Source of the DNA: Ceratodon purpureus
Taxonomy: Eukaryota; Streptophyta; Bryopsida; Pseudoditrichales; Ditrichaceae
Reading direction: 5' to 3'
Length of the DNA stretch: 64,000 nt
NCBI GenBank assembly: GCA_014871385.1
Contig: CM026429.1
Location: forward strand, 3,386,869 to 3,450,868
Every line of letters starts with the position of its first letter. Within the stretch, counting starts at the first letter, position 1. Of the stretch, positions 16,481 through 64,000 are shown in pieces. The notes under the pieces were generated by a model that saw nothing but the letters and a program-made list of their open reading frames with translations, ran no database searches and was not told the DNA's origin. Made by a program: the position numbers and the translations under genes.

Positions 16481-16584
16481 ACCTCTTAGGCCGAAGATAC
16501 AGTACACTCCGACAAACGGATTGAACAACGTGGGTGGGCAGTCTCTCAAATCCCGTAGAGTGTATGCGTGTCCACTCTAGAGAT

Positions 16585-16720
16585 CCGTCCGCGAGTCAGT
16601 CAGCGTAGTGCGTCGTATCGTGGACTGAGAGGTCGGAAGTTCGAATCCTCCTGGTATTTTTTGAAGACTCAGGGAATTTATGGGTGTGGATCTGGAGGTC
16701 GGGAGTTCGAATCCCTGTGA
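16585..16720 (+). repeat. tRNA-like (pol III B-box-like) sequences, probably SINE or tRNA relic
   Basis: Two close copies of a B-box-like element occur, AAGTTCGAATCCT near 16,640 and GAGTTCGAATCCC near 16,705. The first is preceded by an A-box-like CAGCGTAGTGCG. No complete tRNA cloverleaf can be folded by eye. I call it a relic, not a tRNA gene. Confidence 0.3.
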
Positions 16721-16739
16721 AGACTGATGGAATTTTTGG

Positions 16740-19380: not shown

Positions 19381-19566
19381 ATAATATTCCATGTACTAAG
19401 TCAGCAATACAGAAGCTGTATTGACTTTTTCATTGTAAAGGCTTTGTCGTTCACATTAATTGCATTCTATTTCAATACAATCTATCTTGAACAAGTGCAC
19501 TATAAACCTCGTATCCCCTGACATGTACCTTTTATTACAGCCAAGATATACTTGTTATTAGACGTC

Positions 19567-20019
19567 CTAATCTTTGAACTTAACACGTTTAGGGTTGCCC
19601 ACTACATTATCAGCAGGACTGCCAGCCTCTGACTGTACTACATGACAAACTACATTCGCGTTCACTTTCGGTCCCACACTTGGCAAGTGTCCTTGGTATG
19701 AACGTTTCACCAATGGCCTACCTCCCCGCCTCTGATTCACTGATTCCCTCGAATAGGTTCCCCTTGGGATCTTTCCTACCTTGGAGTATGCATGAGGTTG
19801 CAAAGGCACATCTGCGTCCTCCTCGAGCACTATGATCTCATCCGAATTTTTTGAACGTGGAAGGTCAGCTCTCACATCCGATTGCACATCCACAGCCGTG
19901 GTCAAAGGACGCCCTTGGCTGTTGGCCATCACCTCCTCTTTGTCCTCCACCTCAATATACGGTTGAAATGGGCAAACATCGTCAGCGAGTGAAACAACAA
20001 TATCTTTGACGTCTTCCAT
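19567..20019 (-). CDS. Small conserved terminal gene of the element family (E3 copy)
   Basis: This is a 150-residue frame starting MEDVKDIVVSLADD, the same length as the E2 copy at 8322-8774 with about 26 substitutions and no indels. Flanking DNA on both sides (19,388-20,979) is also homologous to the E2 left arm in reverse. Frame conservation in a non-autonomous element suggests a cis-useful or recently active protein. Function unknown. Confidence 0.65.
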   Translation of the reverse strand: MEDVKDIVVSLADDVCPFQPYIEVEDKEEVMANSQGRPLTTAVDVQSDVRADLPRSKNSDEIIVLEEDADVPLQPHAYSKVGKIPRGTYSRESVNQRRGGRPLVKRSYQGHLPSVGPKVNANVVCHVVQSEAGSPADNVVGNPKRVKFKD

Positions 20020-20771
20020 AACCGCTGTCCGCCACTACGAAAAAGAGCTTTACAAAACACCAACACAAAAGAGGAAGAGACATTCCATAATCTTAACTTA
20101 AATATCCCTGAAGAAGATGCTTGGCGCCCTTGAAAATCGGCATTTCATTCATTTAAAAGTTATCATCCTCCTAAACTTAATGAAAAAGGACGATGGTTGT
20201 GCAGAAGTCATTTACCATTTAAAAATTAAAAAATTAAAAAACATCTTAAAAAATGAAATTATAAAAGAAAAAAGAAAAAAAGAAACATTTATAAAAAATG
20301 AAATTAAAAAAGAAAAGAAAAAAGAAAAGAAAAAAAAAATATTAAGGTTGCAAATAATATGAAGGAGATTATAAAATTGAAAGAGAAAATTAAATGAAAG
20401 ATAAAAATAAATAAAAGGACTCTTTTGACTCCATTAATGAGATAGATAGAATAGAGGAAGTTAATACAAAATACAAGATAATTACAAATAAAATTAATAA
20501 AAAGATTAAAGGCACCTAGACTAGAATGGATGAGTTCTAGTAATGTTAAGAAAATGTTACAATATTAAAGGTTACTTGATCCCTCTTAAGAGGTTCAATA
20601 CCAATACATTTAAAGCAGTAATTTGGATATAAATGTGAGGGGATAAGGGGAATTAACGTATGCCAAAACTAGTTAGAGGGAGCTGGAGCATAGTAATCGG
20701 TGCGCGTCAAAAAATTTATCACCAAGAAAAGAGAAAACGAACTACAAATTCAATGAAAATACTGTAATTAG
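20020..20771. other. E3 right-arm non-coding DNA
   Basis: This is a counterpart of E2 7343-8321 in reverse. It contains a short A/G-rich tract (about 20,220-20,480) where E2 has its long pyrimidine minisatellite. No gene seen. Confidence 0.6.
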
Positions 20772-20979
20772 TCCACGGTTATAGGGTCAATTAAATTACT
20801 AAAATTAGTAAATTCCCAAAAATACACTAAGAATATTCGAATCTTCTAATTTTATAATTTATTTTTAGTAAAAAAAGTGCTATTTTAAGGTTCTGTCCCC
20901 CATTCTGTGCTCTCCGCTCTCCAAATCTGCGCTCACCGCTCTCCGCTCTGCGCTCTCCGCTCACGTACAAGCTACGTCC
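20772..20979. repeat. E3 right terminal inverted repeat and subterminal motif
   Basis: The reverse complement reads GGACGTAGCTTGTACGTGAG followed by GAGCGGAGAGCG-type units. The motif TCCACGGTTATAGGGTC sits at 20,772-20,788, 191 bp from the tip, the same distance as at the E2 left end. Confidence 0.85.
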
Positions 20980-20989
20980 ACGCGTTTGA
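20980..20989. repeat. Right target-site duplication of E3
   Basis: ACGCGTTTGA, identical to 11,155-11,164. Confidence 0.95.
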
Positions 20990-22532
20990 CATGGTCGAAC
21001 ATGATCCATGCGTTCTCCAAGTCGCCACCAGCTTGCATACGGCTGACCAAGTCGACACCACTTCCCGGCCCGACCTCCGACATCTTGAAGACGAAGACTT
21101 TGTCACGCATAGCTCCCTGACCAGGAAACCTATTCTCCTGGACATACGCCCAGAGACTGTTACCACGGAGCTTGGTGATACCGTCCATGATTCCGTACCT
21201 GTTGAATTTTTTGAAGGTGGCGACTTTGTTGCGGATGTTTGGTGACGCCATGTCTTTGCATCGATCCAGAACAGGAACCAGCTCCTCCATCGTCAGCTTC
21301 CTCGGTGGTGCATCCTCGGGCTGTAGGAGGTAGCTCCCGATGAGGAGTTTGCTCGCCTCCAGGACAACGGCGCTCTTTGTTGCTTTGTTGTTCATCTCTA
21401 CCTGCTCTTCTATTAAGCTACTAATCTCTGCTTTAGAGTCTCTGTAGTCTCCAACTTTCACTGGATGATCATGTGTTCCTATGTGAATACACGCTCTAGT
21501 CTGATTCGGTTTGCCCACAACGTAATAAATCTTAGCCTCGCATGTAGCTACACATGATGGAGGTTCTTTACATACCTTGCACACTAGCGTGGAGTCAGAT
21601 GGAGGAGGCTGGTCCATGACAAAAGCTTGCAGGGTACAGCCTTCGAACTCAGTCTCGTTGACCTCGAAGATCTTGGGAACACGCTTGAGGAAGTCACACT
21701 CGTGGTTGCTGCACCGGAGCCATCCGACGCAGGTGGAACTTCGAAAAGAGAGTCCGAAGTCGTTTTTGATGTTTGTTGTGATGGTCTTGGTCCACAAGTG
21801 TCCGTCGTATCGTTTGTCCATTCCCTGCATAGACTTGGCGGCGAGCTTAGAGGAACCTGCAGCAGCTGGGGGCAACTCAAAAAGAACCGGACCATCAAAC
21901 TTCGCAGGCAAGTACTCTACTCTCTCGTGTCTAATAGTGGAATAGTCTATCTTCTTCAAAATGTTTTTGGACCCACGCGTCTTAGCAATCTCTTGAAGGA
22001 GCGGAACAATGCTAACTGTGACCTGGGACAATGGAGGAGACACATTGGAAGGAGGAGCATCTGCATGGACCTTAGGCACCAACTTCACGGGACTGACTTC
22101 GTCATCAGAAGAGAGAGATATGACGGTCGGAGGAGGTTTCTCTACATCTGAAGTCTCGGTACCAGGCTCGACTTTGACTTTGACATCACGAGGTAAGGGA
22201 GTCTGAATTGTGCAAGTAGAAGAGCGACGGGGGGTGAGGATCTCAGTGGATGCAGCCATCAGAGAATCAGTAAGACCATAGACTCTATAGGATCCAGGGA
22301 GGAGTCTCCACTGCAAAATGTTGTTCTCATCTCTCACTGAAGGTTGCCCGAGGGTGTGGGTAACCTCGGCAGTAACGTCATCAAAGATCTCCTCCTCTAT
22401 ACTGATGGAATCCTCACGAAAATGGAATCTGAGACTGAGGCGAAGAGAGGACACCGTAGCTAGACCATCGTCATCTACGCGAAACCTAAGAGGGATGCCC
22501 ATGCCTTGGGCGTACAGACAGACCATCCCCAT
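20990..22532 (-). pseudogene. E2 MULE/SWIM transposase, N-terminal half (separated by E3)
   Basis: An open frame runs from ATG 22,532 to the E3 junction, about 515 residues. It includes a Cys/His zinc region (CSNHECDF, CKVC, ending THDHP) and the first catalytic-core segment to MFDHVKR. After E3 the reading frame continues at 11,154. Similarity to the E1 transposase holds along the whole length (for example AASTEILTP). The true start may lie in an upstream exon, since conservation begins just before the first ATG. A truncated product ending soon after FDHVKR could still be translated into E3 (stop near 20,961). Confidence 0.85.
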
Positions 22533-23330
22533 ATTCGCAGGCAACTCAAGTATACTAGAGGGAGAAGGAAGAAGAGTGAGTGTACTAGCAAAGCAGTATC
22601 GCGAGAGCGAAGTGAGAGGAATGATGCATCGTTGTTGATCATTTTATTCAAATTGGAATGTCCATGTGGACGACTAGGTAATGATTCATTCTGCTACGTA
22701 ACGAATGTATAGTTAAAGAGAGACGGCGCTAACTAATTATGATGTTGCTTTTTGCAGGCCCAGAAATATGTAGTAAGATTTTCTAGAATATTGCTTCGCG
22801 TATTTGAATGGTGGAGCAGATTCTTTTTTTTATGGGGTGTGATTGGATTAAAAAGAGCCGTCTATTCCTTCTGCATTGAAAACAATAAATATATAGAATT
22901 TGAATTAATCAAATTCATGCATTAGTTATATATTTATAGGACTAATGCAAGCATATGATTTATTCAAATTCTATATTTTATTCAGTGTTAGAGTTCCTCT
23001 ATTTTCAAAATAAATTACTGGACAGACAGACTGTGAGTGAGATTAGAGTGAGCCGTCACTTGCATCCATATTTAATACAAGTATTTCTGTGCTTAATTCA
23101 AATCTTTTAATATTATGTGGGCTTTGTTTATTCTCTTCAAATATAGATTGATCTCATCAGCTTTAATTCAAATTGCAATTTATTTATAGTTTTCATTAAT
23201 TCAAGTAGGTTTAGAATATGGGAAGTATTTAGGGCTGAGTCAGGGGGGTTGCAGGTTTGGGATATAAGAGTTAGAGGAAAGTTAGTAGAAGAGCTGTATT
23301 GTGAGGAGAGTTCTCTCGTTAGTTAGACAC
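22533..23330. promoter_or_regulatory. Divergent promoter region between E2 transposase and E2 repeat/CTD gene
   Basis: About 800 bp between the reverse transposase and the forward gene. The forward half is AT-rich with several imperfect copies of AATTTGAATTAATCAAATTC-like words around 22,890-23,220. No clear TATA box was identified. Confidence 0.4.
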
Positions 23331-26300
23331 ATGAAGGAGAGTGGAGGGTCAGCTCCCTCCACTTATGTCACTCCTAAACCTAGAAGAAAAGCATATGGTA
23401 CAGATTTTACGAATAGGAGAGCGAGGAAGAGGAGAGAATCACGTAGAAAGGAGAAGTCGATAGGCAACCTCTTGAGTGCACCTCTGAAGGTTCGAGGAGC
23501 TGGGCTGCCTTTAGCAATTAAATTTTGTAGCATTCGTAAACTCATTCTAGAGTCCATAGTAGAGGTGAAAGAAGAGGATTTAGAGGTGAACGTAGTTGAG
23601 CATCAGGAGCATGAGGTAGAAAGTACCCAGGAGAAAGACATAGAGATGACAGAAGAATTAGGGTTCAATTCCAGTCCAATTTTGGAGACACCGCAACCTT
23701 CTTTCGGATTTAAGGAGTGTTCAACAAGAGGGACGGGTACTCAATCGGGCGAGCAGTCTAACAAGGATATGGTAAGTTTCTTAATTTATATGCTTCACGT
23801 AAATTATGTATATTATTAGAGGTATATTAAGTTTTATGTATTGTCTTCGTTGCGGGTTTATTTATTACTGCAATGAATTTTGGATGCGTCATGAATCGAA
23901 TGGTTATTTAGAATAAGATTCCCGAAGTAGTAATTATCGTCCTAGTCTTGAACATTTGCGCAGATTGACGACTGGTTTAGGATTGAGCAAGAAGTTGTAG
24001 AGGAGAAGACGCCAGAAGTGGATGCGGGCGAGGAGTCAGATCCAGAGACATTGATAAAAGTCGCTCGGAGAGCGAGACGTGAAATCATGGAGGCGGGCGA
24101 AGGTGGGGTTGTAACAGCTGCTAGACGAGCGGGGCGAGGGCACCCTGAAAGTCCTACTGAGACTAGTGGGGAGGATGTTGATTTGCTCGACATTGCGGTA
24201 GGCCCAGGAGAAGAGGATATGGATGAGGGGTCGGCCCGAGGGAGAGGTCGGGGAGATGAGGTGCGGGGTCGAGGTAGGGCTAAAGGTCGAGGTGGGAGAG
24301 GGAAAGCATCTTCGCAAGCCCCATTCAAAGACACACCCGCGGAACCGGAAGAGAGAGAGACTGTGAAGGAGATGGAGGGGCGAGGAGAGGAGCGTGTGGA
24401 GATGGAGGGGCGAGGAGAGGAGCGTGTGGAGGAGGAGATGGCGAGTGAGCAAGGTGGATCGGATCGGGGCCCTGCTACCGAGGAGGTAAGTATTCGTGTT
24501 CTATGTGTTGCTGTTGTGGGTGTCGGTGTACAGGGAGAGTGGATTGAAAACATGAGTGTTGTGGCCGCGGAGGTGATTGTGGAGGAGGAGGGGAAGGTTG
24601 ATGGGGAGGAGAGGCGCAACTAGATTTGGGAGATGGAGGCATCCATGGCAGAGGCCCATGTGAGCGGAATCGGCAGCCCTCTTGCGGCCTTTGCTGCATT
24701 GAATCCAGGGGAAGCGAAGTGTACGGAAGGGTTTGCTTAGCAGTCCGCAGCCACTGCCGCGAAGTTGGAGGTGGGTACTGAGGCACAATGGGAGGTGGGT
24801 ACCGCAAGAATGGAGACCATGGCCGCGGCTGCAGCCACTGCCACAATGGGGAAGGCGGATACCGCAGCGGAGTGGGAGGTGGGTACCGCAAGCAAGGAGA
24901 CCATGGCCGCGGCTGCAGCCACTGCCGCGATGTGGAAGGTGGGTACCGCAAGCATGGAGACCATGGCCGCGGCTGCAGCCACTGCCGCGATGTGGGAGGT
25001 TCGTACCGCAAGCATGGAGACCATGGCCGCGGCTGCAGCCACTTTTGCAATGTGGAAGGTGGGTACCGCAAGCATGGAGACCATGGCCGCGGCTGCAGCC
25101 ACTGCCGCGATGTGGGAGGTGGGTACCGCAAGCATGGAGACCATGGCCGCGGCTGCAGCCACTGCCGCGATGTGGGAGGTTCGTACCGCAAGCATGGAGA
25201 CCATGGCCGCGGCTGCAGCCACTTTTGCAATGTGGAAGGTGGGTACCGCAGCGGAGTGGGAGGTGGGTACCGCAAGCATAGACACCATGGCCGCGAGGGA
25301 GAACCCTCATGAGGTGTGGCATTCTGTACAGAATGCCCCCCATGAGGAGAGGGAGATTTCGAGGAGAGGGGCCGCGGACGTGGGTACCGCAAGCAAAGAC
25401 ACCATGGCCGCGTCTGCAGCCACTGCCGCGATGTGGGAGGTGGGTACCGCAAGCATGGAGACCATGGCCGCGGCTGCAGCCACTTTTGCAATGTGGAAGG
25501 TGGGTACCGCAAGCATGGAGACCATGGCCGCGGCTGCAGCCACTGCCGCGATGTGGAAGGTGGGTACCGCAAGCATGGAGACCATGGCCGCGGCTGCAGC
25601 CACTGCCGCGATGTGGGAGGTTCGTACCGCAAGCATGGAGACCATGGCCGCGGCTGCAGCCACTTTTGCAATGTGGAAGGTGGGTACCGCAAGCATGGAG
25701 ACCATGGCCGCGGCTGCAGCCACTGCCGCGATGTGGGAGGTGGGTACCGCAAGCATGGAGACCATGGCCGCGGCTGCAGCCACTGCCGCGATGTGGGAGG
25801 TTCGTACCGCAAGCATGGAGACCATGGCCGCGGCTGCAGCCACTTTTGCAATGTGGAAGGTGGGTACCGCAGCGGAGTGGGAGGTGGGTACCGCAAGCAT
25901 AGACACCATGGCCGCGAGGGAGAACCCTCATGAGGTGTGGCATTCTGTACAGAATGCCCCCCATGAGGAGAGGGAGATTTCGAGGAGAGGGGCCGCGGAC
26001 GTGGGTACCGCAAGCAAAGACACCATGGCCGCGTCTGCAGCCACTGCCGCGATGTGGGAGGTGGGTACCGCAAGCATGGAGACCATGGCCGCGGCTGCAG
26101 CCACTGCCGCGATGTGGGAGGTGGGTACCGCAAGCATGGAGACCATTGCCGCGGCGGCAGCCACTGCCGCGATGTGGGAGGTTGGTACCGCAAGCATGGA
26201 GACCATGGCCGCGGCTGCAGCCACTGCCGCGATGTGGGAGGTTCGTACCGCAAGCATGGAGACCATGGCCGCGGCTGCAGCCACTTTTGCAATGTGGAAG

Positions 26301-28612
26301 GTGGGTACCGCAGCGGAGTGGGAGGTGGGTACCGCAAGCATAGACACCATGGCCGCGAGGGAGAACCCTCATGAGGTGTGGCATTCTGTACAGAATGCCC
26401 CCCATGAGGAGAGGGAGATTTCGAGGAGAGGGGCCGCGGACGTGGGTACCGCAAGCAAAGACACCATGGCCGCGGCTGCAGCCACTGCCGCGATGTGGGA
26501 GGTGGGTACCGCAAGCATGGTGACCATGGCCGCGGCTGCAGCCACTGCCGCGATGTGGGAGGTGGGTACCGCAAGCATGGAGACCATGGCCGCGGGGGAG
26601 AAGCCTCATGAGGAGAGGCATTCTGTACAGAATGCCCCCCATGAGGAGGGGAAGGATACGGGGAGAGTGGCCGCGGAGGTGGGTACCGCAAGCATAGACA
26701 CCATGGCCGCGGGGGAGAAGCCTCATGAGGAGAGGCATTCTGTACAGAATGCCCCCCATGAGAAGGGCGACGATACCGGGAGAGTGGCTGCGGAGGTGGG
26801 TACCGCAAGCATAGACACCATGGCCGCGGGGGAGAAGCCTCATGAGGAGAGGCATTCTGTACAGAATGCCCCCCATGAGGAGGGGAAGGATACGGGGAGA
26901 GTGGCCGCGGAGGTGGGTACCGCAAGCATAGACACCAAGGCCGCGGGGGAGAAGCCTCATGAGGAGAGGCATTCTGCACAGAATGCCCCCCATGAGAAGG
27001 GGGACGATACCGGGAGAGTGGCTGCGGAGGTGGGTACCGCAAGCATAGACACCATGGCCGCGGGGGAGAAGCCTCATGAGGAGAGGCATTCTGTACAGAA
27101 TGCCCCCCATGACGAGAGGGAGATTTCGAGGAGAGGGGCCGCGGACGTGGGTACCGCAAGCATGGAGACCATGGCCGCGGCTGCAGCCACTGCCGCGATG
27201 TGGGAGGTGGGTACCGCAAGCATGGAGACCATGGCCGCGGCTGCAGCCACTGCCGCGATGTGGGAGGTGGGTACCGCAAGCATGGAGACTATGGCCGCGG
27301 CTGCAGCCACTGCCGCGATGTGGGAGGTTGGTACCGCAAGCATGGAGACCATGGCCGCGGCTGCAGCCACTTTTGCAATGTGGAAGGTGGGTACCGCAAG
27401 CATGGAGACCATGGCCGCGGCTGCAGCCACTGCCGCGATGTGGGAGGTGGGTACCGCAAGCATGGAGACCATGGCCGCGGCTGCAGCCACTTTTGCAATG
27501 TGGAAGGTGGGTACCGCAGCGGAGTGGGAGGTGGGTACCGCAGGCATAGACACCATGGCCGCGGGGGAGAAGCCTCATGAGGAGAGGCATTCTGTACAGA
27601 ATGCCCCCCATGAGGAGGGGAAGGATACGGGGAGAGTGGCCGCGGAGGTGGGTACCGCAAGCATAGACACCATGGCCGCGGGGGAGAAGCCTCATGAGGA
27701 GAGGCATTCTGTACAGAATGCCCCCCATGAGGAGGGGAAGGATACGGGGAGAGTGGCCGCGGAGGTGGGTACCGCAAGCATAGACACCATGGCCGCGGGG
27801 GAGAAGCCTCATGAGGAGAGGCATTCTATGAAGAATGCCCCCCATGAAGAGGGGGAGGATTCAGGGAGAGAGGCGGAGTGGGAGATGGGTACCGCAAGCT
27901 GGGAGAATGCCGCCCATGTGGAGGGGGCAGCTGTTTGGAAATTATTTGAAACGATTACAACTCTTGCTTATTTTTATGATGCATTCTATTCATTTTCTAT
28001 AATCTATAAACTGTATGTTTTGCAGGAGTTCACGGATCAACTCACTGCGACTGAAGGTGATGGTCCAACTCCTGCAGAAACTGAGGTAATTTAATCCATT
28101 TTCCTTTTTGTATTGAATTTGGCATTGTCAATTAAACTTCCTTTATAAGTTTTGTAAACTAAAATGGTAACTTGACAATGTCTTTGTTCCACTTCTTGTA
28201 GGTATTCTCAGATGCACCCTTGTCCATCAGTTCCCCGATCTCAATTATCAATCTTTCCGACCTTTCGGATTCATTTGATCAGCCCCATTTATGTAGGTGT
28301 GATTTAGGAAGCCCTGTAGGTCTAGGAAGTGGACCTCTCGAGGTCCACTCCCCTCAGTACATGCCTACGTCTCCTGTCTATGAGCCTACATCCCCAGGCT
28401 ACATGTCTACTTCTCCACGGCTTGGTACCCCGCCGATGTCTCCACCTTCTCCTTCCTCGCCTATTAGAGTGAGGAGGCCAGCCCATGTTGTCTTCGCCCT
28501 CCCGGCGATACTACCATGCCCTGTCCAACAGACCAGGCGTTTTTGGAGGAGGCGCCGTCATTGGAACTGTAGACAGGCTAGGGAGTATTATAGCCGTGCT
28601 CCACGTACATAG
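23331..28612 (+). CDS. E2 repeat protein with C-terminal Pol II CTD-like heptads
   Basis: Proposed exons are 23,331-23,771, 23,964-24,485, 24,741 to about 27,932, 28,026-28,085 and 28,202-28,612. All join in phase 0 and total 4626 nt (about 1541 residues). Exon 1 is basic (RRARKRRESRRK, nuclear-signal-like). Exon 2 is acidic, then Arg/Gly-rich. Exon 3 is a long tandem repeat (VGTASMETMAAAAATAAMWE). The last exon has SDLSDSFDQ, three heptads ([21 protein letters not shown]), a Pro/Ser tract and an Arg-rich end. The stop at 28,610-28,612 is conserved in the other two copies. Exon 4 ends in phase 0, so it could instead splice to the ParB exon at 28,749, giving a giant repeat-ParB-MTase protein of about 2455 residues. 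The donor of exon 3 is weak (GCT|gtttgg) and that intron may not exist. Confidence 0.55.
24765..27890 (+). repeat. Coding tandem repeat: 60-bp and 117-bp units with a 20-bp palindrome
   Basis: The 60-bp unit (GTGGGTACCGCAAGCATGGA...) encodes 20 residues, rich in Ala, and occurs more than 30 times. A second unit of 117 bp, encoding PHEERHSVQNAPHEE-type sequence, contains the perfect palindrome GGCATTCTGTACAGAATGCC. Copies start at 25,318, 25,939, 26,389, 26,617, 26,734, 26,851, 27,085, 27,586 and 27,703, with imperfect ones at 26,968 and 27,820. Higher-order duplications of several hundred bp (for example 24.9-25.3 kb against 25.5-25.9 kb) are evident. Unit lengths are multiples of three and lack stop codons in most frames, so long antisense frames here are by-products. 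Confidence 0.9.
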
Positions 28613-28748: not shown

Positions 28749-31700
28749 GTAACTCAGACACAGGATATGTTGCCAGCGCCATCTTGTCCTCCTGATTTGA
28801 CGAATGTAGTGGACAGTGAATTGGAACATCGGGTACAACACAAGCAAGACTCCAATGGCGTCATCAATAAGCTCCGAATACTTCCAAAGACAAAGTCGCG
28901 TATCCAAGTTCCCCTTTGCAGGATGCTCTCAATGGCCAGAGTGCGACCTGTAGGAGAAATGGGAGTTCAACATTTGGAGCGAGAGTTTGTCAAAGGCTAT
29001 AGAGATGGAGACCGTGTCATGTACATTTCCATCTACAACCACGAAGAGAAGACAGCCGATGTCACTGAGGAGATGAAGGCTGACTGGAGCCCGTGTTGGC
29101 AAAATGTTAATGATGCTTTTGAAGATGAGCTCTTGGCCGACCCGGATTGGAAGGAGTTCTCCGGGAAGATGTTCTATGTCTGGGAAGGTAACCATCGCCT
29201 TGCCGCATGGTACAGACATATCAACAAGCATCACAGCGACGATCCAGCGTGGCACATCTCTGTGCATTGCATTGTTCTTGACCCTCGCGGTCATGTTGGA
29301 AACCTTCTTCATGCCATGCATGACATTAATTGGTAAGAATTAACTCTCTCTACTTTGTCTATACCTCTTGAACGCCGATTGAACTTGTACTTTATGCTTA
29401 TTATTAACTTACGTCTATTTGTACAGGTCTACGGAAAATGATCACGTGAAGAGTAATATTCCGGCAAAACTTTATCGTATTCGCTCCTTTGGTGTGATGA
29501 AATTGGAGGAATTCAAGGATCTGCTTTCACCACAGGAGTATGCTTTAGCATTGAATCACAAACCAGCTACTCCATCCTGGTTTACATTGCCAACAAAAGT
29601 ATTCATCGCTTTTCTTTATCGGGTAAGCACTCATTCCTCCCCCCCCGACGCTTCCATTTGGCAATTGATTTACGGTGCTTCATATAGTTCCTCTAACATT
29701 GCTTTGTGTTCCAGCGAGAAATTGTGGTAGCTTCTGACGAAGCTGCCAGAATCTACAAGGAGAAAACACCCATTGAAGACCAAACCGCGACTGGTGTTTG
29801 GGATGCCATGAATGCGGCTTCAAACAACATGGTGGAATCGATTAAGAGGAAGGACTTCACCAAGTACTTGGCAATTGCAAATCCCAAGAATGGAGACGAC
29901 TTCCTCAACGAAGTGAGACCCTCATCGTGCCTGAGTTCACTATTTTGTATCACAACAACATTTACGTATTCTTTTTTTCTAAAACTCCTGTACTTATTGC
30001 AGATTAATCGGCATTTCAGTGACTTCTCAAAACCTGAGATGTCACTTGATAAGCTCCAGAAGATTGTTCCAGCGGCCGTTGAGGCCAAGTACAAGGCTCG
30101 TTGGTTGAGGTGGTGGAACTCATCTCTGAGTTCCCGATTGTCTTACAGATTTCCACCACTTGAATTCAAGGATACCGAATTTGACCCATGGTTGAATAAG
30201 GCCTCATTCTGGGCTGGGGTACAATTTCTTAAAAAACCTTTCCCATTACATTACGCATTACTCTCTTCGTCGATTCTTTCTCATTGCTAATTAATTGAAT
30301 TCTGAATTACAGTTGGAGGAAGCCGTTATTAACACATTCGAGGACATATGCAAGACGGAGAACATCGTTATCAATTGGAAGGCCTTTCCGGAAGTACAAG
30401 AGCCGGGCGATTTTGTGGAGAGTTCACGTATTCTCTTGTGGGACAAGGCCTTCCCTACGTTCATTGGAAAATCGGCAGATAAGCCCTTCGACAAGAAGTC
30501 CATTTTTGCTAAATTTCCTGGAACCGCTCAGGTTGTCAAGCGGGTTACTTACCGGTACGATACATTCCTTTTAATCAGATTCAAATTCCATAACGAGGTC
30601 TCTTTATCTCTTTGATACTAACCTTCTACATATTGGTTTACATAGATACTTCAAGCGAGAGCTTCTTCTGAAGGGGGCAATCAAGGTTCAGCAGCTCCCC
30701 CCCTACTTCCTTGCTTGGACGTCGAAAACCTCGGACCAGTGTATCTATTCTCCCCAACAGTTGAAAAGGTACAAAGCTCCTCACTTGCTTGAAGGATGCT
30801 GGTATCTTGATTGCTCTCGTGGTTTCACGATTGACTCAGAGGTAGACGTCAAGACTCTACACGATGGGGGTGAGGTTGTGGTGGAGGACTCCGTGGATGA
30901 TGCAGAAGGTCGTGAAGGAGAGCAGGATCAGTCTTCTGCTCCACCACCGAAGAGAGGGAGAGGAAGGCGACTGAAATCTCTGCGTTCTCGGTCGGAGGCA
31001 TCACAGCAAACTGGTGCGGAGTCTTCCGCGCCAGCTGAGAAGGCACCAGAGCCGTCTCCGGGTGTTGTCGTTACCAACCCTTCTCCAGCTTCTTCGCCAG
31101 CTCCTTCATCGATTAGTGCTTCGGAGATCACCAGAGGTCTCCTTCAGCAGAGGAAGGCCAAACTATATCCTCAAACAACTTCTTCCGCTGGAGCTTCGAT
31201 TTCCACACATGTTTCCGTCTTCAACTCATCTGTGGATTCTATGTTACGGCGAAATAGGAGACAGGAGAGAAAAGGTGGCGACCCGGATTGGATCAAGACT
31301 CAAGACTTCATTCGCAAGGTTTGTTCCTATATTTTGACATTTAATGGATTCTGCCACCTCTACTCGCTATGTAGTTACTAACTCTGCTTTCTTGTTTCCT
31401 CTAGTTTGGAGCAGGCCGCGAAAACATAGTTGGGGACCGGTGCAAACAAGAGGACCATCTGGGAGTCGATTTGATCATTGCCGACATCCCTGAGAATCTT
31501 CCCGTCCCATCCGTTTCCGTTCCCCCCACGAGTATTCCGCCTTGGAACTCTCGCTACAAGGATTATTTGTACGACATCTTCCATTTTGCAGATGATTTTC
31601 TGCAGAAAGATGGTGCCATCTGCCTCATCTACAACACTGATCAGAAGCTGGCTAAGGATATCGAGGAAGAAGCTGCTAATGGTGGATACGTGCTGTTCAA

Positions 31701-32721
31701 GGACTGGTGGGGTGTCAATGTACTCGGCCTGACTTCTCCTACGAACCCCGAGAACTTGGTACTTTTCCTGAACATGCCCTTCTCTTCGCTTACTGATAAC
31801 CCTTCCGCTTCATTTTACTCACTTGTTTTGCTTGACTGCAGACTATGCGATTCTGGATTCGCGTCTACGTTCGTAGTGGCAGTACTTTCTCCTTCCAGAC
31901 GAAGAAGGAAGACCTGATACATGGGCTCCTCAACATTACCGAGAGTGATGCCATTTTCAACTTGACCGATGTGGATTCGCAGCTCATGAATGGGGAGGTG
32001 CCGTGGAGAGGCCCAAGGGAGAAATCCATCGAGATGATGCAGGGCATACTTGAGGAGCTGTCGAAGCCCGGCGACATAGTTGTTGATTGGAATGCTGGGA
32101 CAGGTAACTCTTCATGCATATCTTTGCTGAATTATTCTTCTCGTTTTTACCACAGTTTCTCATTTCTTAGTATCTCTCCGAGTTTCAGGAGCCTCCATCA
32201 AGGCTGCCCAGGCTACTGGTCGCCACATTCTCGCTTTTGAGGAGGACGAAGCCATATTCAACGCCCTTCTCAAACCATCCGCCATGGGCCCTCCTAAACA
32301 TCCAAGGCCGGCAGCAACAGACGAAGCGCCTCCAAAGAGACCAAGACCTGATAAGTGGTGTAAGTCTTCTATTCTTTGTTCAAATTATCCATGCATTACT
32401 TCTCTTTGCAGCTCTACGTACTCGATGTAACCACAGTCCGTTCTCTATTGCAGAGTAGTTTCAGCAACACCGCCACGTGGGCCAACATCAGTGTCCACTC
32501 CATCCTGGCGTCTTCATTCCAGCCCGATTCAGCCTTTCATACTTCCGGACTACGCAGAGGACTTAGCACAGGCGTTTCAATCTGGAGCCCTTACATATGT
32601 TCCTAGTCGGCCAACTACTTTTGATCACAGAGCCCTTCTATTCGTCGATGACGAGGCGGTAGAAGGAGATTCAGAGTCATCTAATTCTGAGAGTGGAAGT
32701 AGCGATGGTAGCATGTTTTGA
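28749..32721 (+). CDS. E2 ParB-MTase protein: ParB/Srx-like domain fused to N4/N6-MTase-like domain
   Basis: Ten exons are proposed: 28,749-29,332, 29,427-29,622, 29,715-29,912, 30,003-30,218, 30,313-30,554, 30,646-31,318, 31,405-31,758, 31,842-32,103, 32,189-32,359 and 32,465-32,721. They total 3153 nt (1050 residues). The ParB-like part has VPLCRMLSMARVRP and WEGNHRLAAW. A helical middle region and a basic GRGRRLKSLRSR linker follow. The C-terminal domain has, in beta-class MTase order, VDLIIADIPENLPVP (motif IV position, DIPE instead of DPPY), then EVPWRGPREKS, then PGDIVVDWNAGTGASIKAA (SAM motif I) and ILAFEED. The tail is acidic (SESGSSDGSMF). It is the only undisrupted copy in the window. 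There is no own ATG at 28,749: the first exon begins at a splice acceptor, so the start is in an upstream exon, probably 28,026-28,085 or earlier. DNA binding is likely, methylation doubtful. Confidence 0.8.
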
Positions 32722-34249: not shown

Positions 34250-34369
34250 TTCCACGGTTATAGGGTCTACTTTGCTTTTGAAAATTTTGCTATTTCTCAA
34301 TTCTGTGCTCTCCATTCTGCGCTCACCGCTCTCCGCTCTACGCTCTCCGCTCACGTACGAACTTTCCCC
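34250..34369. repeat. E2 right terminal inverted repeat and subterminal motif
   Basis: TTCCACGGTTATAGGGTC (34,250-34,267) lies 102 bp from the tip. The terminal GCTCTCCGCTC units end in ACGTACGAACTTTCCCC. Confidence 0.85.
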
Positions 34370-34379
34370 GATAGGCTGC
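34370..34379. repeat. Right target-site duplication of E2
   Basis: GATAGGCTGC, identical to 7124-7133. Confidence 0.95.
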
Positions 34380-37300
34380 AAACAAAGTTCAACAGAGAGC
34401 AAGCCGTTGCAAATCCAGTCCATGGCAAGGGATTTCAAAACGAGGTAAATACTTTGGAGTTGATCAATTGGGTTATTCTTTGAATATAGGACGTTAAAAT
34501 TCGTGGTGATGAGTGGAAATTGATCTCAAAAATGGTCTGTCGGATTGTTCTCTAAATCTTTGGACGTTCGGATTCCGAGGGGATGTGCCCATTTAGTTCG
34601 TAGAAATGATCTGTCGGATTCTTATGAGAAATTTAGGATGTATAATTTCCAAGGGGATGTGCCCATTGAGCTCCTTTAAAATGATCTGTCGGATTCTTGG
34701 AAGAAAATTCGGACGTTCATATTCCGAGGGGATGTGCCCATTAAGTTCGAAGAAATGATCTGTCGGATTCTTATGAGAAATTTAGGAAGTATAATTTCCA
34801 AGGGGATGTGCCCATCGAGCTCCTTTAAAATGATCTGTCGGATTCTTGGAAGAAATTTCGGACGTTCAATTTCCGAGGGGATGTGCCCATTAAGTTCGTA
34901 GAAATGATCTGTCGGATTCTTATGAGAAATTTTTGATGTTCAATTTCCAAGGGGATGTGCCCATTGAGCTCCTTTAAAATGATCTGTCGGATTCTTGGAA
35001 GAAATTTCGGACGTTCAACTTCCGAGGGGATGTGCCCATTAAGTTCGTAGAAATGATCTGTCGGATTCTTATGAGAAATTTTTGATGTTCAATTTCCAAG
35101 GGGATGTGCCCATTGAGCTCCTTTAAAATGATCTGTCGGATTCTTGGAAGAAATTTCGGACGTTCAATTTCCGAGGGGATGTGCCCATTAAGTTCGTAGA
35201 AATGATCTGTCGGATTCTTATGAGAAATTTTTGATGTTCAATTTCCAAGGGGATGTGCCCATTGAGCTCCTTTAAAATGATCTGTCGGATTCTTGGAAGA
35301 AATTTCGGACGTTCAATTTCCGAGGGGATGTGCCCATTAAGTTCGTAGAAATGATCTGTCGGATTCTTATGAGAAATTTCGGACGTTCAAATTCCGAGGG
35401 GATGTGCCCAATGAGCTCGCGGAAATTTTCTAAAAAATCCGACAGATCGATTTATAACACTCATGGTAGCAAGGTACCACAGAGATTTTACATACGTTTA
35501 GATGATTTGGATCAATTATTTGCACTAAGATGTGTTTTTTTAGTAATTTTAAGGAAAATGTGCCTCAAAATGCGAAAAATACCGAAGTACCCTGGAATGT
35601 TTGAGTCGAGAAATCATCTTTAGAATCCGACAGATGGTTTTTCTGTGTACATTTACCTAGGTACTCTGGGAAACTAGTCGCAAGAAATTATCTCTAGAAT
35701 CCGACAGATGGTTTTCGAGTGTCAATCATCTCAAGGTACCTTGTCAAGTTGGTGATAGCAAACAAGTTAAGAAATCCGACAGATGATTTTATTGTTTCCA
35801 TTTACCTGGGTACTCTGGAATTTTTGTCCGAAGAAGTAATCTCTAAAATGTGTCAGATGATTTTAATGTGTCGATTACCGCAGGGTACTCTGTCAAGTTG
35901 GAGAATTTAGATTAGCTCTGAAATCCGACATATGGTTTTGATTGTGTCAAATTACCTTGGTACTGTGGGAAGTAATACAGTAGAAATAATCTCTAAAATT
36001 AGACTGTTGAATTCAATGTGGCCAATTCGTCAAGGTACGTCAGGAAATTAGATATCGTAAACAATCTAAAACCTATGACAGATGGTTTATTTGTGTCAAT
36101 CTACCTAGATACCTTGGAAACTTGGAGACATGAAATAATCTCAAAAATCCGACAGACGATATTGATGTGTCGACTTCCGCAAGGTACCTTGTCATGTTGG
36201 CGATCAAAAATCATCTCTGAAATCCGACAGAGAATTATTTTGTGTTCACCTAGCTAGGTATTGTGGACTATATGACTGAAGAAATATTCTCTGAAATCCG
36301 TTTCATGATTTTTATGTTTCGAATACCCCAAGGTACCTCGGAAACTTAGCATTGATAAATCATCTGTCTCATCCGATAGATGAAATCTATATCGTATTCT
36401 TTACATGGTACTGTGTTGCATTCGTATGACAGATCAGCTGTTGGACCCTTTAGCGGTGATCTAACACACTTTCTATGAAAGAAAATGATGATTTTACATA
36501 GATAGTTAATGCTCTGTTATGAGGAAATTTGGTATTCGATGCAATGATGTCTCTCAGATTCTAATCTTCACTAGTCTGATTACTTGGGATGCTGTTGATT
36601 TTCAGATCAAAAGACATTATGATCGGCACCAAACCAAGGTTGAGATGACCATCGACAAGCTCCAAGCAATTGCAACATCTGAGGTGTCGGCCAAAACCAA
36701 AGCGAAATGGCTGAGGTGGTGGAACGGGTCGGCGAGTTCAAGGAAAACATTGAAGTTTCCACCATCACCTTGCTCAATTGAAGTGCTTAACCCCTGGATT
36801 ACAAAAGCTGCATTTTGGGCAAACGTAAGTGTAGTTCATCATTTCTAGAACTCTGGGTTGTTACACTGATTCGAGGTTATAGCCGATGGCGTCCTCTTTA
36901 GTTATTTGTGTCTCACTCTTAAGTTGATTCTTTTGTATCAGTTGGAAGACGAAGTCGAGAAAGAGTGCCTCAACTGGTTGGCAACCAGTTCCGATGCAGA
37001 GGAAGACATTAACTCCAAGCGCACTCCTATGGCCGAGTACATCGAGAAGTGGCGTGTGCTTCTATGGGAGAAGGCATACTTGTCGTTCTTCACTGGAGCT
37101 AATGTGTATTCGAAGTCGCAACCATTCAATTCCCAACCAGGGACCGACATGGCTTGGAAGCGATGTCTGTATCGGTACTTTAAGCGGGAGCTCATCCCAG
37201 CTGGTGTAGTTAAGAGTATACCACCTCCGTGGTTCAGCTGGACGGAGACATCGAATTCCGAGTTCATCTTCACAACCAACCAGCGGAAGATGTTCAATTT

Positions 37301-39103
37301 GAACCATCTGATTGAGTGCTGCTGGTATATCGAGTGCCCAAAGTCATTTGTAACTGCTGAGGAGAAGGCTGTAAGGGAGATGTTTACCAAGAGGAAAGAT
37401 GGGGAAGACGACACCCATGATATTTCAGATGAAGCACTTCTTGCTCAGGATGCAGAGCCAGAACAGGATACACAAGTCGTTTCGACATCCACTGGTGCCG
37501 GGGATGCGAGCACAAAGAAACGGAAGAGGGGAGCGAAGTCGGCATCGAAGGAGTCCCACCAGGAACCAGTGAAGAAGAGGAGCAGGGGGAAGAAGTCGGA
37601 CCCAGCGACTGTTGAGCCGAATGGTGCGGAGAATGGGACATTCTCTCCAAGGATTGGACATGCTGAGAAGCCAGACGTCAGCGCACCTCAAGCAAGATGC
37701 CCTGTTCATGAGTTGATTCTGAATGAATCAATAACTGAGTGGCAGAAGGCAAATCCTAGAATGAGGTTAAAAAGCATGCCAAAGGCTTTCAACGACATGG
37801 TCCAGTGGATTCGGAGCGTCACCCCTCAACGGGTCCGGATGAAGGACGGGAAGAGTGTTCGGGGGGGTGGATTGGCAGATCTCATTATCATTGATATTCC
37901 GGAGGGTCTACCGGTCCCTGGTATATCCGATGAGGACGAGATTCCAGATTGGAACAGCAGAGGCGACAATTACCTTGCAGCCGTCTTTGGCTTTGTTAAA
38001 CTCGTTCTCCAAGACCAGGGGTGTGTGATCATTATCCATCCGGATGACAATGGCGAAATTGAGGACGAGATTCGTGATTTTCATCAAGTGGTTGAATTGA
38101 AGTCTGAGAGGTCGTGGACAGGCATCAATAGATTGCTTCTTCGCTCCGCAAAAATAAGCGGCATGACAACATGCTTCTTTAAGGTGCAACTTCTTACATT
38201 ATCCTCGAATAACAGCTTTGACTTCAGACCGACACCCGAGGATTACAAGAAAAAGAGCATCGACATCGTTGACCGTGATGTCATCCTAAATTGGGTTACG
38301 CTGGAGCAACAGACGATGCGCAAGGAGGTGCCATGGCGAGGAGCGAGGGAGAAAGACGTGCTGTTCATCGAGAGCTTAATCAGAGCCACCACCGACCCTG
38401 GTGACGTCGTCGTCGATATCGGCGCCGGAACGGGTAAGTCTCGTCGTTTTTGCACATGCGAGGTAACTTTGAACAAGGCCTTTTTTTTGAAATTTGAAAC
38501 TACTAAAATCTAACAGAGAGGCACTCAATTGTATCAGGTGCATCAATCAAAGCATGCCGGCAGTCAGGACGGAACATAGTTGCGCTTGAGGATGACCCTG
38601 AGCTGTATACAGAAGTCCTAAAGAAGTTGGCTCTGCCGCCACTGCCTCTTCCGAAGGCGGATTCATCTCATGTACCGATCAAGCCGATGATCGAAAAAGA
38701 AGTTCTGGCCACCCCTAAGCCGGTGAATAAATTCATCGCCATGATGACTGAGGAAAGCGACGACGAGTAAGTGAGTATTTCAATGAACATTTTCTAAATG
38801 TGACATTTTGAAATGACATGGTTTTTTGTTAAATATGAATCTGTTTTTTGATACGGTTGTGGTTGCAGACTGCTGAGTCCGCGATCTGGTGGGATAATTA
38901 ACGAGTGCATCAAGAAGATAGCTCTATCACCTGATTTGCTACGTCTTCTAGAGTATGCCGAGCTAGGGGCTCAATTTCAAGCTAATGTGGAGTCTCCAAC
39001 ATTGAAGAAATTTACGCGTAGAAAATACGATGGTCGAGTCCTAAGCTTTGTGGATGTTGAAGCTGTAGTTGAATCTCATAGCCTTCTTGTTGATCCGGAG
39101 TGA
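34380..39103 (+). pseudogene. E1 ParB-MTase gene, 3' part (middle region + MTase-like domain)
   Basis: Exons are 34,380-34,444 (rest of the exon cut by E2), 36,606-36,824, 36,942-38,433, 38,538-38,766 and 38,869-39,103 (stop TGA). They continue the frame left at 7133. The large exon covers what are four exons in E2, so introns were lost in E1 or gained in E2. Visible motifs are LADLIIIDIPEGLPVPG (DIPE at the DPPY position), EVPWRGAREKD, PGDVVVDIGAGTGASIKAC (SAM motif I) and IVALEDDPELY. Lys/Arg-rich blocks (KKRKRGAKS, KKRSRGKK) suggest nuclear location. This half has no start codon or promoter of its own, so the gene is inactive unless the 27-kb insert is removed. Confidence 0.85.
34445..36605 (+). 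repeat. 2.2-kb intron of E1 ParB gene made of two opposed minisatellite arrays of ATCTGTCGGATT
   Basis: The intron has donor gtaaat and acceptor ttttcag. From about 34,540 to 35,430 some 11-12 units of about 75 bp, alternating between two subtypes, each carry GATCTGTCGGATTCT. From about 35,443 to 36,440 another 10-11 degenerate units of about 73 bp carry the reverse complement, AATCCGACAGATGG. The two arrays face each other around 35,430. The first array is much more uniform than the second. Confidence 0.85.
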
Positions 39104-40010: not shown

Positions 40011-40135
40011 ATTTTTCATAGTTTGTCACCTTCTGCTTAATCCATTTTGGTGAGTTTCATCCTCTATTTTTTTTGTTGTTCACTTTGATTGCCTTTCTGC
40101 TATTTTCGTCTCTCTCATTTCCGTTGCATATGTGA

Positions 40136-41060
40136 ATTTGCTAGTGTTTGTGCTTTGTTACTGTGGCTATGGAGGTGGGGGGCCGAGGCTCCAGAGGGCC
40201 GATGAAGCCTCTCCCGGCCCCTCATTTGTATGTGTGCTTGTGTTTATGCTTCGTTACTGTGGCTATGGAGGTGGCGGGCCGAGGCTCGAGAGGGCCAATG
40301 AAGCCTCTCCCGGCCCCTCATTTATGTGTGTGCTTGTGTTTATGCTTCGTTACTGTGGCTATGGAGGTGCGGGGCCGAGGCTCTAGAGGGCCGATGAAGC
40401 CTCTCCCGGCCTCTCATTTGTGTGTGTGCTTGTGTTTATGCTTCGTTACTGTGGCTATGGAGGTGCGGGGCCGAGGCTCGAGAGGGCCGATGAAGCCTCT
40501 CCCGGCCCCTCATTTGTGTGTGTGCTTGTATTTATGCTTCGTTACTGTGGCTATGGAGGTGGCGGGCCGAGGCTCGAGAGGGCCAATGAAGCCTCTCCCG
40601 GCCCCTCATTTGTAAGTGTGCTTGTGTTTATGCTTCGTTACTGTGGCTATGGAGGTGGGGGGCCGAGGCTCGAGAGGGCCGATGAAGCCTCTCCCGGCCC
40701 CTCATTTGTATGTGTGCTTGTGTTTATGCTTCGTTACTGTGGCTATGGAGGTGGCGGGCCGAGGCTCGAGAGGGCCAATGAAGCCTCTCCCGGCCCCTCA
40801 TTTGTAAGTGTGCTTGTGTTTATGCTTCGTTACTGTGGCTATGGAGGTGGGGGGCCGAGGCTCGAGAGGGCCAATGAAGCCTCTCCCGGCCCCTCATTTG
40901 TGTGTGTGCTTGTGTTTATGCTTCGTTACTGTGGCTATGGAGGTGGCGGGCCGAGGCTCGAGAGGGCCGATGAAGCCTCCCCCGGCTTGGAATTAGTGTA
41001 TTTTCTTGTGTGTGTGCTTCCTTACTGTGGCTATGGAGGTGGGGGGCCGAGGCGGTTTCT
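40136..41060 (+). repeat. GC-rich 96-bp minisatellite (about 9.5 units)
   Basis: The unit contains TGTGTTTATGCTTCGTTACT, GTGGCTATGGAGGTGGCGGG and CCGAGGCTCGAGAGGGCC. Units are nearly identical. The length of 96 is a multiple of three and frames stay open, but whether it is translated is unclear. The same minisatellite lies at 47,140-47,760 in front of a different coding exon. Confidence 0.9.
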
Positions 41061-41136: not shown

Positions 41137-41781
41137 ATGGGGAGCAGTGATCAAGTACCGCCACCAGCTGAGACCGAGGTACTAGAATAATAGTACACTA
41201 AACCTAAGATATCTCTGATTCACATACATGACTCCTGCCTCCTAATGTTTTGCCCTCCTCTCATCTGAAAGAGAAATCTAACCTTCTAATTATTTCTGCT
41301 ATTCTAGGTGTATACCGATGCATCTGAGAGGTCTATCTCCAACCCCATTCCAGTGATCAATGTTTCCGATCTCTCGGATTCATATGATCATCAATTCTGT
41401 ACCTGTGCTGGAGCAAGCCCTGTGAGTCTTGGTGGTGGGCCGTTCGAAGTCCATTCTCCACAGTATATGCCTACCTCTCCAGTTTACATGCCTACATCTC
41501 CAGTGTATGAGCCTACCTCTCCAGTTTACATGCCTACATCCCCAGTGTATGAGCCTACCTCTCCAAGCGCCTTGCCCACTTCTCCTGCACCGGATTCACC
41601 GCCAATGTCTCCTCCCTCTCCTTCATCGCCTATTCGAGTGAGGAGGCCAGCCCATGTGGTCTTTGCCCTTCCGGCAATACCGCCTTGCCCTGTTCCAAAA
41701 ACCAGGCGATATTGGAGGAGGCGCCGCAACTGGAATTGTAGACAGGCTCGGGAGTATTATAGTCATGCATCACGTAGATAG
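41137..41781 (+). CDS. CTD-mimic protein with six heptads ([14 protein letters not shown])
   Basis: Exons 41,137-41,178 ([14 protein letters not shown]) and 41,308-41,781 give 171 residues. The protein has a Ser/Asp motif ([14 protein letters not shown], resembling a SUMO-interacting motif) and a short Cys pair (CTC). Six consecutive heptads follow, [35 protein letters not shown] and ALPTSPA. Next come [11 protein letters not shown], then [13 protein letters not shown] and an Arg-rich tail (YWRRRRNW). The heptads match the Pol II CTD consensus at positions 1, 3, 4, 5 and 6. No ParB exon follows in this copy, which supports the CTD-like exon being a separate product. If the minisatellite is translated, the protein would be longer at its N-terminus. 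Function unknown. Binding of CTD-recognising factors is a hypothesis. Confidence 0.65.
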
Positions 41782-43121: not shown

Positions 43122-44153
43122 ATGGCAGATCATAGACTCAAATGCGTTTTTTCACTATTCTATGTCTTAATTCTGACAACTTTCCTACGAGTACAATCAT
43201 TTGATGAAGAAATTATACAGAATGTATTGTCACCAGTTGAAATTACAAATAATATGCACAAGAAGGTATGGCTAGATTGCTTCGAAAAGATATATGATCA
43301 TGGTGTGCCAATAAAGCAAAACGTTGTGTTTGATCAAATTAAAGCTTATGCATCTGTCGAAGTTGGCCGCGGTCTTCTCGATTTTGAAGATAATTTGTTT
43401 TGTGATTTTGAATACGAAATCCGCGAATGGAATTGTGCCATAAAATATGAGATAGATTACATGTGCATCTGGGAGCATCCACATGCTCGTCTTATGCGGC
43501 ACGAAGATGCAAATTTCAACAATGACAATTGTCCAATCTGTGAACAAGGTCCCAGCCCTGATACATATTTGTGTCGATGGAATATTGAACGAGATGGTTT
43601 GTATGTTTCTCAGTTCCATCCTATTAGCGGGAGACATCAGTACAAGCTATTTCAACATTGGAAGGAGGACGAGGACCACCACAAATTCCTCGCAGAGTAC
43701 AGGATCTCTATTTTTAATGATTTGGATGATGAATTAATGCTTACATTTGGAGTTGTGGATGGCACAAGGAACACTGTGAAAATTCCTGGACGCCTTCGAG
43801 CACACATATCTGAACAATTTTTTCAAATATCCTTAAATCGACGCACTGATGAGCACTTACTAGGTTCGACTTGGATATGTAATTTTAAAGACCTTGGGAG
43901 TATGGCTTATCGTAGAGATATTAAAATATGGACACCTCCTCTGCAAAACCACGTTTCAGTTCCTATCGAATGTATAGATTGCGCATGGAAAGCAGATAAT
44001 GAAGGCATTTGGCTGGATCGGGTTGGATGTGGACAGACCGGATCAATTTGGGAAAAACGATTTGACTGGGTTCCAATACGAAAGCGGACAAGAGAACCTG
44101 GCAATGAAGATCAACCACCAAAGCGTCCAAAACTGGAGCACTTGGAACTTTAA
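43122..44153 (+). CDS. Unknown 343-residue single-exon protein with hydrophobic N-terminus and nuclear-signal-like C-terminus
   Basis: The frame starts at ATG 43,122. Residues 10-25 are hydrophobic (FSLFYVLILTTFL), resembling a signal peptide or anchor. The body is rich in Trp, Asp and Cys (DNCPICEQGP, LCRWN, WICNF, CIDCAW). The C-terminus is strongly basic (RKRTREP, PPKRPKLE). I recognise no family. The frame is long for AT-rich DNA and has no introns. It lies in the 40-51 kb cargo region, downstream of the palindrome at 42,683. Confidence 0.6.
   Translation: MADHRLKCVFSLFYVLILTTFLRVQSFDEEIIQNVLSPVEITNNMHKKVWLDCFEKIYDHGVPIKQNVVFDQIKAYASVEVGRGLLDFEDNLFCDFEYEIREWNCAIKYEIDYMCIWEHPHARLMRHEDANFNNDNCPICEQGPSPDTYLCRWNIERDGLYVSQFHPISGRHQYKLFQHWKEDEDHHKFLAEYRISIFNDLDDELMLTFGVVDGTRNTVKIPGRLRAHISEQFFQISLNRRTDEHLLGSTWICNFKDLGSMAYRRDIKIWTPPLQNHVSVPIECIDCAWKADNEGIWLDRVGCGQTGSIWEKRFDWVPIRKRTREPGNEDQPPKRPKLEHLEL

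Positions 44154-60103: not shown

Positions 60104-64000
<3,897 letters not shown>

Follow-up and report, generated by a model that had tools for sequence, protein, structure and literature searches.

Large terminal-inverted-repeat transposons of a high-copy superfamily in the moss Ceratodon purpureus carry a ten-exon gene with a methyltransferase-like domain

We analysed a stretch of 64,000 nucleotides from Ceratodon purpureus (the window; contig C9:3386869-3450868) and searched the assembly to which it belongs (362,488,568 bases in 151 contigs); all genomic copy counts given here are scored matches within this one assembly. The window contains a ten-exon gene (28749-32721, plus strand) that encodes a putative ParB-like N-terminal region and a methyltransferase (MTase)-like C-terminal half. 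We found that this gene is real and is a component of a large transposon with terminal inverted repeats (TIRs). Far from being a rare cargo, it is regularly present in such transposons, which form a high-copy superfamily, and is placed divergently from the transposase. Families of the superfamily were numbered: family 1 comprises elements of the type of element 1 in the window, family 2 those of the type of the outermost element, and families 3 and 4 are defined by position and score only. Labels C1, C2, C6 and C9 denote contigs of this assembly, C6 being a giant contig of more than 110 Mb.

Element 1 (7134-34369, plus strand) is a whole TIR transposon with a second element, 1b, nested in it. 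Its TIRs (7134-7187 and 34316-34369) are identical at 48 of 54 positions and are bordered by a perfect 10-bp target site duplication (TSD), GATAGGCTGC, at 7124-7133 and 34370-34379. When the flanks were joined, all 40 scored genomic matches (the best 40 of 99 candidates) were full length and uninterrupted at 98-100% identity (24 at 100%, nine of these at full score, 15 at 99% and one at 98%), indicating that element 1 was inserted recently. Element 1b (11165-20979, minus strand) is non-autonomous, with its own perfect 10-bp TSD, ACGCGTTTGA, at 11155-11164 and 20980-20989, and TIRs identical at 44 of 54 positions. It sits within the transposase of element 1, and joining its flanks gave a continuous 745-aa frame. 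Element 1b contains a small open reading frame (ORF-A), an exon resembling the C-terminal domain (CTD) of RNA polymerase II, and exons 1-5 and part of exon 6 of the ParB-like gene. Its own TSD indicates that it has been mobile although it lacks both a transposase and the MTase part, which shows no more than that supply of both in trans is possible.

Element 1 itself lies within the third exon of a homologous gene in an outermost element of family 2, so that three elements are nested one inside another. The right end of the outermost element was not found in the window, and its left end seems to lie beyond it. The interrupted gene consists of a ParB-like exon ORF on one side (5597-6613, plus strand; 38% identical to exon 1) and MTase-like exons on the other (36510-38771, plus strand; PF01555 E=0.0033, below the cut-off). 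The latter include an ORF that starts at 36870 and reaches a donor near 38434, followed by an exon that opens at 38538 and stops near 38771, with a further exon possible. A preliminary description of this DNA had proposed three related copies of the gene. Three were indeed found; the one in element 1b is without its MTase part and without a transposase, and the third is one gene split by element 1.

The transposase of element 1 lies on the minus strand in two parts (20990-22643 and 10581-11164), severed by element 1b, and a further ORF occupies the same strand at 9029-10546. The first part has 79 scored genomic copies at 97-100% identity, window included; two contain a stop, and the 745-aa frame is open in 53 of the 79. 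The two parts are 51 and 55% identical to the core of the family 2 transposase, whose ORFs in the window (1585-3918 and 288-1742, together 288-3918, minus strand) were recognised by alignment with that of element 1. Motifs such as CDMQSED, FKGFMAD.AQANWN and C.FHW are conserved between the two families, and conserved D and CxxH-like motifs were recognised by eye. The preliminary description had tied the gene to Mutator-like elements (MULEs). That a transposon is involved was established by the TIRs, the two 10-bp TSDs and the empty sites; however, Pfam matched no transposase family, MULEs included, among the ORFs of the window (E<=1) or with a 731-aa query across the insert (E<=0.1). An AlphaFold2 (AF2) model of the transposase core had a predicted local distance difference test (pLDDT) score of 37, too poor for use. 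Mutator and MULE TSDs are 8-11 bp long, mostly 9-10, a range into which both duplications fall, that of element 1 being verified at the 40 scored empty sites. TIRs on the scale of 54 bp are short for classical MULEs; those of elements 1 and 1b agree between the two ends at 48 and 44 of 54 positions. 'MULE-like' is thus a plausible working name, taken from the TSDs, TIRs and motifs.

The joined frame of the ten exons, which are separated by GT-AG introns, is open for 1,050 codons from the first splice acceptor. Eight near-complete copies (L001-L008, L001 being the window's own) were fetched, and the frame and splice sites were open in all eight, bearing out the gene structure that had been proposed from the window. 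Exon 1 (28749-29332), which has an open frame, splice sites and genomic copies, encodes the putative ParB-like domain and starts at a phase 0 splice acceptor; an exon ending at 28085 could join either exon 1 or the CTD-like exon at 28202-28612. Exons 2-6 (29427-29622, 29715-29912, 30003-30218, 30313-30554 and 30646-31318) encode a middle region without an assigned fold and a low-complexity linker. The N-terminal half of the MTase-like domain is encoded by exon 7 (31405-31758), with the residues DIPE at the position of motif IV (31483-31494), as placed by hhalign and by the fetched loci. Exons 8 and 9 (31842-32103 and 32189-32359) contain the S-adenosylmethionine (SAM)-binding motif I, DWNAGTG (from 32085, spanning the intron), and the C-terminal part of the MTase fold, matched by PF01555, phrog_6952 and PDB entry 5hek, and exon 10 (32465-32721) supplies an acidic, serine-rich tail and the stop in the splice model. 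The introns that follow exon 1, precede the residues LEEAV and split the SAM motif occupy, by eye, the same positions in the divergent family 2 gene, which supports the ten-exon model.

Profile searches upheld the MTase-like domain. Pfam PF01555 matched residues 879-934 (E=6.4e-7; 30 bits against a cut-off of 26.7), phrog_6952 was matched in the PHROGs search at 9.4e-11, and a type II MTase of PADLOC at 6.8e-9. A PDB search with a profile of two families returned DpnA (5hek, 9.3e-6) and, more weakly, RsrI and CcrM. These matches rest mainly on the C-terminal, motif I part of the domain. The two-family profile was also aligned by hhalign with 36 phage ParB-MTases (that of phage WO and 35 of 46 loci, one of 36 viral-contig ORFs having been dropped as too short), which gave Prob 95.7 and E 1e-8 over 206 columns; a reversed control gave 0.4. 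In this alignment the moss DIPE falls under the DPPY of the phage proteins.

We read motif IV in 38 fetched loci (eight of family 1 and 30 of family 2, window copies included). A catalytic motif of the form (D/N/S)PP(Y/F/W) was found in none; all 38 carried DIPE (8/8 in family 1 and 30/30 in family 2). Motif I (WNAGTG or IGAGTG), sought with a regular expression, was present in 35 of the 38 (8/8 and 27/30). Across the genome, a looser motif IV frame with DPPY occurred at two sites, against 673 sites of the DIPE pattern. The two DPPY sites, C6:21741121 and C6:21819757, lie about 79 kb apart on opposite strands, and could be a host amino-MTase pair or a chance occurrence. The MTase domains of families 1 and 2 are identical at 99 of 279 positions, and those of families 2 and 3 at 51-52%. 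On these matches we assign the C-terminal half to the beta-class (D12-type) N6/N4 amino-methyltransferases, as a domain in which the SAM-binding motif has been kept and the catalytic DPPY has become DIPE. In the rotifer enzyme N4CMT, a change of SPPY to APPA abolishes N4-methylcytosine (4mC), according to the available part of PMC8885841, and loss of the aromatic residue would on this ground argue against a canonical amino-MTase. The preliminary description had suggested a role in DNA modification, which is unlikely because DIPE replaces the DPPY of motif IV.

The N-terminal region was less readily classified. A G-x-(H)-R-x-x-A box is a feature of ParB/Srx proteins, and the box GNHRLAAW (29187-29210) is the only motif of this kind in exon 1. 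Among 30 fetched copies of the exon it read GNHRLAAW in 27, and family 2 has GNHRTRAW. A similar box arose in 127 of 200,000 shuffles of one sequence. PDB searches with phmmer and hmmsearch gave no ParB match for this part, and hhalign of its profile against the 36 phage ParB-MTases gave Prob 0.2, below the values of up to 2.5 reached by the controls (one reversed, 30 column-shuffled). The moss profile is shallow (effective number of sequences 1.4), so these negative searches are no disproof. An AF2 model of the exon was of low confidence (mean pLDDT 42), with an order of strands and helices compatible with ParB/Srx, and Foldseek found no match to this model at E<=0.001. The ParB/Srx fold that had been proposed was therefore not confirmed by sequence, profile or structure searches, and we keep 'ParB-like' as an unproven lead taken from one short box.

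The copy number of the gene is high. Scored genomic matches to the whole gene numbered 37; identity was 99-100% in 15 of them, among these the window's own, 94-97% in 19 and 87% in three. Exon 1 occurs in at least 150 copies at 88-100%, with a stop in 14 of the 150 listed. For family 2 we counted at least 62 near-full-length copies of the ParB-like exon (among 150 scored) and 61 scored near-full-length copies of the MTase ORF, both at 91-100% and both including the window. The motif IV pattern D-L-I-I-x-D-I-P-E occurred at 673 genome sites and its backwards-read control at none; a looser form gave 1,024 sites and a control of 2, one of the sites lying within the MTase ORF of family 3 (C1:6092826). 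Exon 1 copies and motif IV sites are thus far more numerous than expected by chance.

The gene is also linked to the transposase in copies outside the window, an association whose absence had been named beforehand as grounds for giving up the interpretation. A divergent exon 1, among the 150 listed, lay within 12 kb of 42 of the 79 scored transposases, whereas 500 trials with randomly placed exons averaged 0.29 and never exceeded 2. Motif pairing was counted on C1 and C2, the contigs with a complete set of motif IV sites. There, 18 of 19 scored transposases had a divergent DIPE-motif site 6.5-12.6 kb away, the lone transposase without one being one of two that carry an internal stop, and motif IV followed 22 of 27 scored exon 1 copies 1.5-6 kb downstream on the same strand. 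In family 2, after ten partial MTase rows had been dropped, an MTase ORF was found within 12 kb after the ParB-like exon in 50 of 62 cases, with the split gene of the window among the 12 misses; the same order was seen in 13 of 17 family 3 rows, which were chosen by hand at 69-73% identity while nine others at 67-73% were excluded (eight on C6, some partial). For family 2, the window alone showed the gene linked with the transposase of its own element.

Within 25 kb of the 40 scored near-identical 5' ends, a scored transposase was present in nine cases and a scored exon 1 in eight. The distance from 5' end to transposase was 5.6-5.7 kb in eight of those nine, the ninth being the interrupted copy of the window. 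Since only nine of the 40 have a scored transposase, many copies of the element are probably non-autonomous, or their genes lie outside the scored lists. Contig C6 holds 51 of the 150 listed exon 1 copies, but only nine of the 79 scored near-identical transposases; it also holds 10 of the 14 stop-containing exon 1 copies, and older, decaying copies may gather there.

The gene is under purifying selection. Over the whole gene pN/pS was 0.26 (eight loci, window copies included); for exon 1 it was 0.30 (30 loci, window copies included), and the pooled value for the family 2 MTase ORF was 0.20 (30 loci, window copies included), all from related copies that are not independent of one another. Between elements 1 and 1b, exon 1 had a dN/dS of 0.106, with a dS of 1.86 that is near saturation, and ORF-A a dN/dS of 0.37 (dN 0.071, dS 0.191). 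Among the three CTD-like exons of the window dN/dS ranged from 0.17 to 0.27. These values fit proteins that are required by spreading copies.

Our preferred interpretation, held with a little less than even confidence, is that the protein may be an element-encoded accessory factor for DNA recognition, with a role like that of VANC, and not a DNA-marking enzyme. In its favour stand the TIRs, TSDs and empty sites, the divergent pairing with the transposase, the order of ParB-like exon and MTase ORF, purifying selection, and an MTase identity combined with the loss of DPPY. VANC proteins bind to tandem repeats in the elements that encode them, from which they remove methylation, and so provide a precedent for anti-silencing encoded by an element (PMC10398659, as far as the available text goes). 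By analogy, both the N-terminal region, which may be ParB-like, and the pseudo-methyltransferase domain would bind DNA of the element, either its TIRs or its tandem arrays, with SAM serving as a structural or sensing ligand. Recognition could then aid transposition, or shield copies of the element from silencing as VANC does for VANDAL, and the protein would not be expected to write N6-methyladenine (6mA) or 4mC. The tandem repeats of the element may in part be coding. Several observations weigh against a recognition factor of this kind: the arginine of the box is replaced by cysteine in 3 of the 30 exon 1 copies (GNHCLAAW); ParB_N (PF02195) was not matched in searches of Pfam, PHROGs, NCBIfam and PADLOC; for 31 of the 40 scored 5' ends no transposase was scored within 25 kb; and a DIPE domain could in principle act on another substrate.

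The near one-to-one pairing with the transposase on C1 and C2 would fit a two-gene transposition machine, in which the protein is a subunit of the transposition complex and takes part in cutting, target choice or synapsis (for example as a ParB-like clamp or nuclease on the ends) instead of in anti-silencing. The domain searches made matched no nuclease family, and we regard such a subunit as unlikely, though it is the best of the alternatives. An active writer, which despite DIPE would transfer methyl groups to amino groups of DNA or to another substrate and so protect or license the DNA of the element, is a slightly less likely explanation. It would account for the SAM motif in 35 of 38 loci, for purifying selection on the MTase domain and for the retained aspartate and second proline of motif IV, and a 4mC enzyme of the liverwort Marchantia is mentioned in the available part of PMC8885841; but each of the 38 loci has other residues in place of the first proline and the aromatic residue of DPPY, and DIPE-pattern sites outnumber those of the looser DPPY pattern by 673 to 2.

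MULEs are known for capturing pieces of genes, and the gene could in principle be cargo of the Pack-MULE style, a chance host gene fragment without a role in the element. The motif beside 18 of 19 scored transposases on C1 and C2, and the presence of the gene in at least three families, mostly open and under selection, led us to reject host-gene cargo as very improbable. An endogenous segment of viral or bacterial origin, whether from a giant virus, a phage or a contaminant, is suggested by the phage type of ParB-MTase fusions, as in phage WO, and is the least credible explanation, given ten exons with GT-AG introns, TIRs and hundreds of dispersed motif sites, and scans with short peptide patterns, a method that misses distant relatives, in which the ParB-like part had no relative among viruses and the MTase part none among viruses or prokaryotes; viral origin of this locus was rejected on the TSDs and empty sites.

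The DNA-recognition reading can be extended to the CTD-like exon of element 1 (28202-28612, plus strand), which contains RNA polymerase II CTD-like heptads (YMPTSPV, YEPTSPG) and ends in a stop (PF05001 E=0.0019, below the cut-off). It and exon 1 of the ParB-MTase gene could share one upstream donor, in the same phase. Two further exons of this type lie at 14428-14880 (minus strand) and 41308-41781 (plus strand), PF05001 being below the cut-off in all three; the copies have two to five full heptads, the number varying between them, and a conserved arginine-rich C-terminus. In a bolder scheme, which we consider rather unlikely, a phage-type ParB-methyltransferase fusion would have turned into a SAM-binding pseudo-enzyme that reads DNA and does not write on it, paired with the short protein of CTD-like heptads, which the same gene might produce by alternative splicing; the element would thereby recognise its own copies and engage the host transcription machinery, escaping silencing.

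Other features of the window were recorded. ORF-A (8322-8774, plus strand; 150 aa) lies near the 5' TIR, shares 128 of its 150 residues with the copy in element 1b, and had no match in a Pfam search. A GC-rich (62%) tandem array at 24741-28094 (plus strand) is open in several frames, over 1,117 codons in one, and either codes for protein as an exon of element 1 or is a repeat array whose frames are open by chance. Arrays of one unit of about 96 bp occur at 40127-41053 and 47146-47778, about 6 kb apart with long matches 91-96% alike; the first directly precedes a CTD-like exon, and both are possibly parts of a further element. Host-like genes at 53054-53605 (minus), 56857-57540 (plus), 61902-62234 (minus) and 43128-44150 (plus) are of the F-box type, a RING finger in a stretch of 29% GC, a kinase fragment (below the cut-off) and a weak match resembling S1 self-incompatibility proteins.

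If the preferred interpretation is true, a pseudo-methyltransferase kept under selection in a recently mobile superfamily of high copy number would represent an anti-silencing accessory of a new type, in which a bacterial-type DNA-marking enzyme has been reused as a reader by a eukaryotic parasite. The 673 MTase-motif sites of this one genome would, we suggest, be owned by transposons and not be host enzymes. Accessory proteins that free plant transposons from silencing are few, VANC and MURA being those named in the available part of PMC10398659. No such element was found described, by title or abstract, in searches of an open-access library, a scope outside which most subscription journals and preprints fall.

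The MTase-like domain shares with the beta-class N6/N4 amino-methyltransferases (PF01555; DpnA 5hek, RsrI, CcrM, MboIIA) the order of motif IV before motif I, the A-G-T-G SAM motif and the following strand GR-x-I-x-A-x-E, and differs from them in having DIPE for DPPY, a location in a eukaryotic transposon, and introns. Phage fusions of ParB_N with N6_N4_Mtase, of the Wolbachia phage WO type, have the same order, with the MTase coming after an N-terminal ParB part that is putative in the moss, whereas the moss protein adds a long middle region and the ParB parts are not alignable by profile. The phage WO fusion was the best-covering phage match (98% of the MTase query at 23% identity, E 0.02). 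Descent from a ParB-MTase fusion is not established by this, because MT836278, an MTase without a ParB match, scores better (E 4e-6, 93% coverage). VANDAL elements are MULEs, and in the VANDAL/VANC system of Arabidopsis, too, a TIR transposon of a plant contains tandem repeats and has an accessory gene next to its transposase; we liken the two by role. An MTase domain is not mentioned for VANC in the available part of PMC10398659, whereas the moss protein has one. The N4CMT of bdelloid rotifers is likewise a bacterial-type amino-MTase domain in a eukaryotic nucleus with a connection to transposons; but N4CMT, whose gene belongs to the host, has retained SPPY and places 4mC on transposons, whereas the moss gene is owned by the transposon and lacks that motif (PMC8885841, available part).

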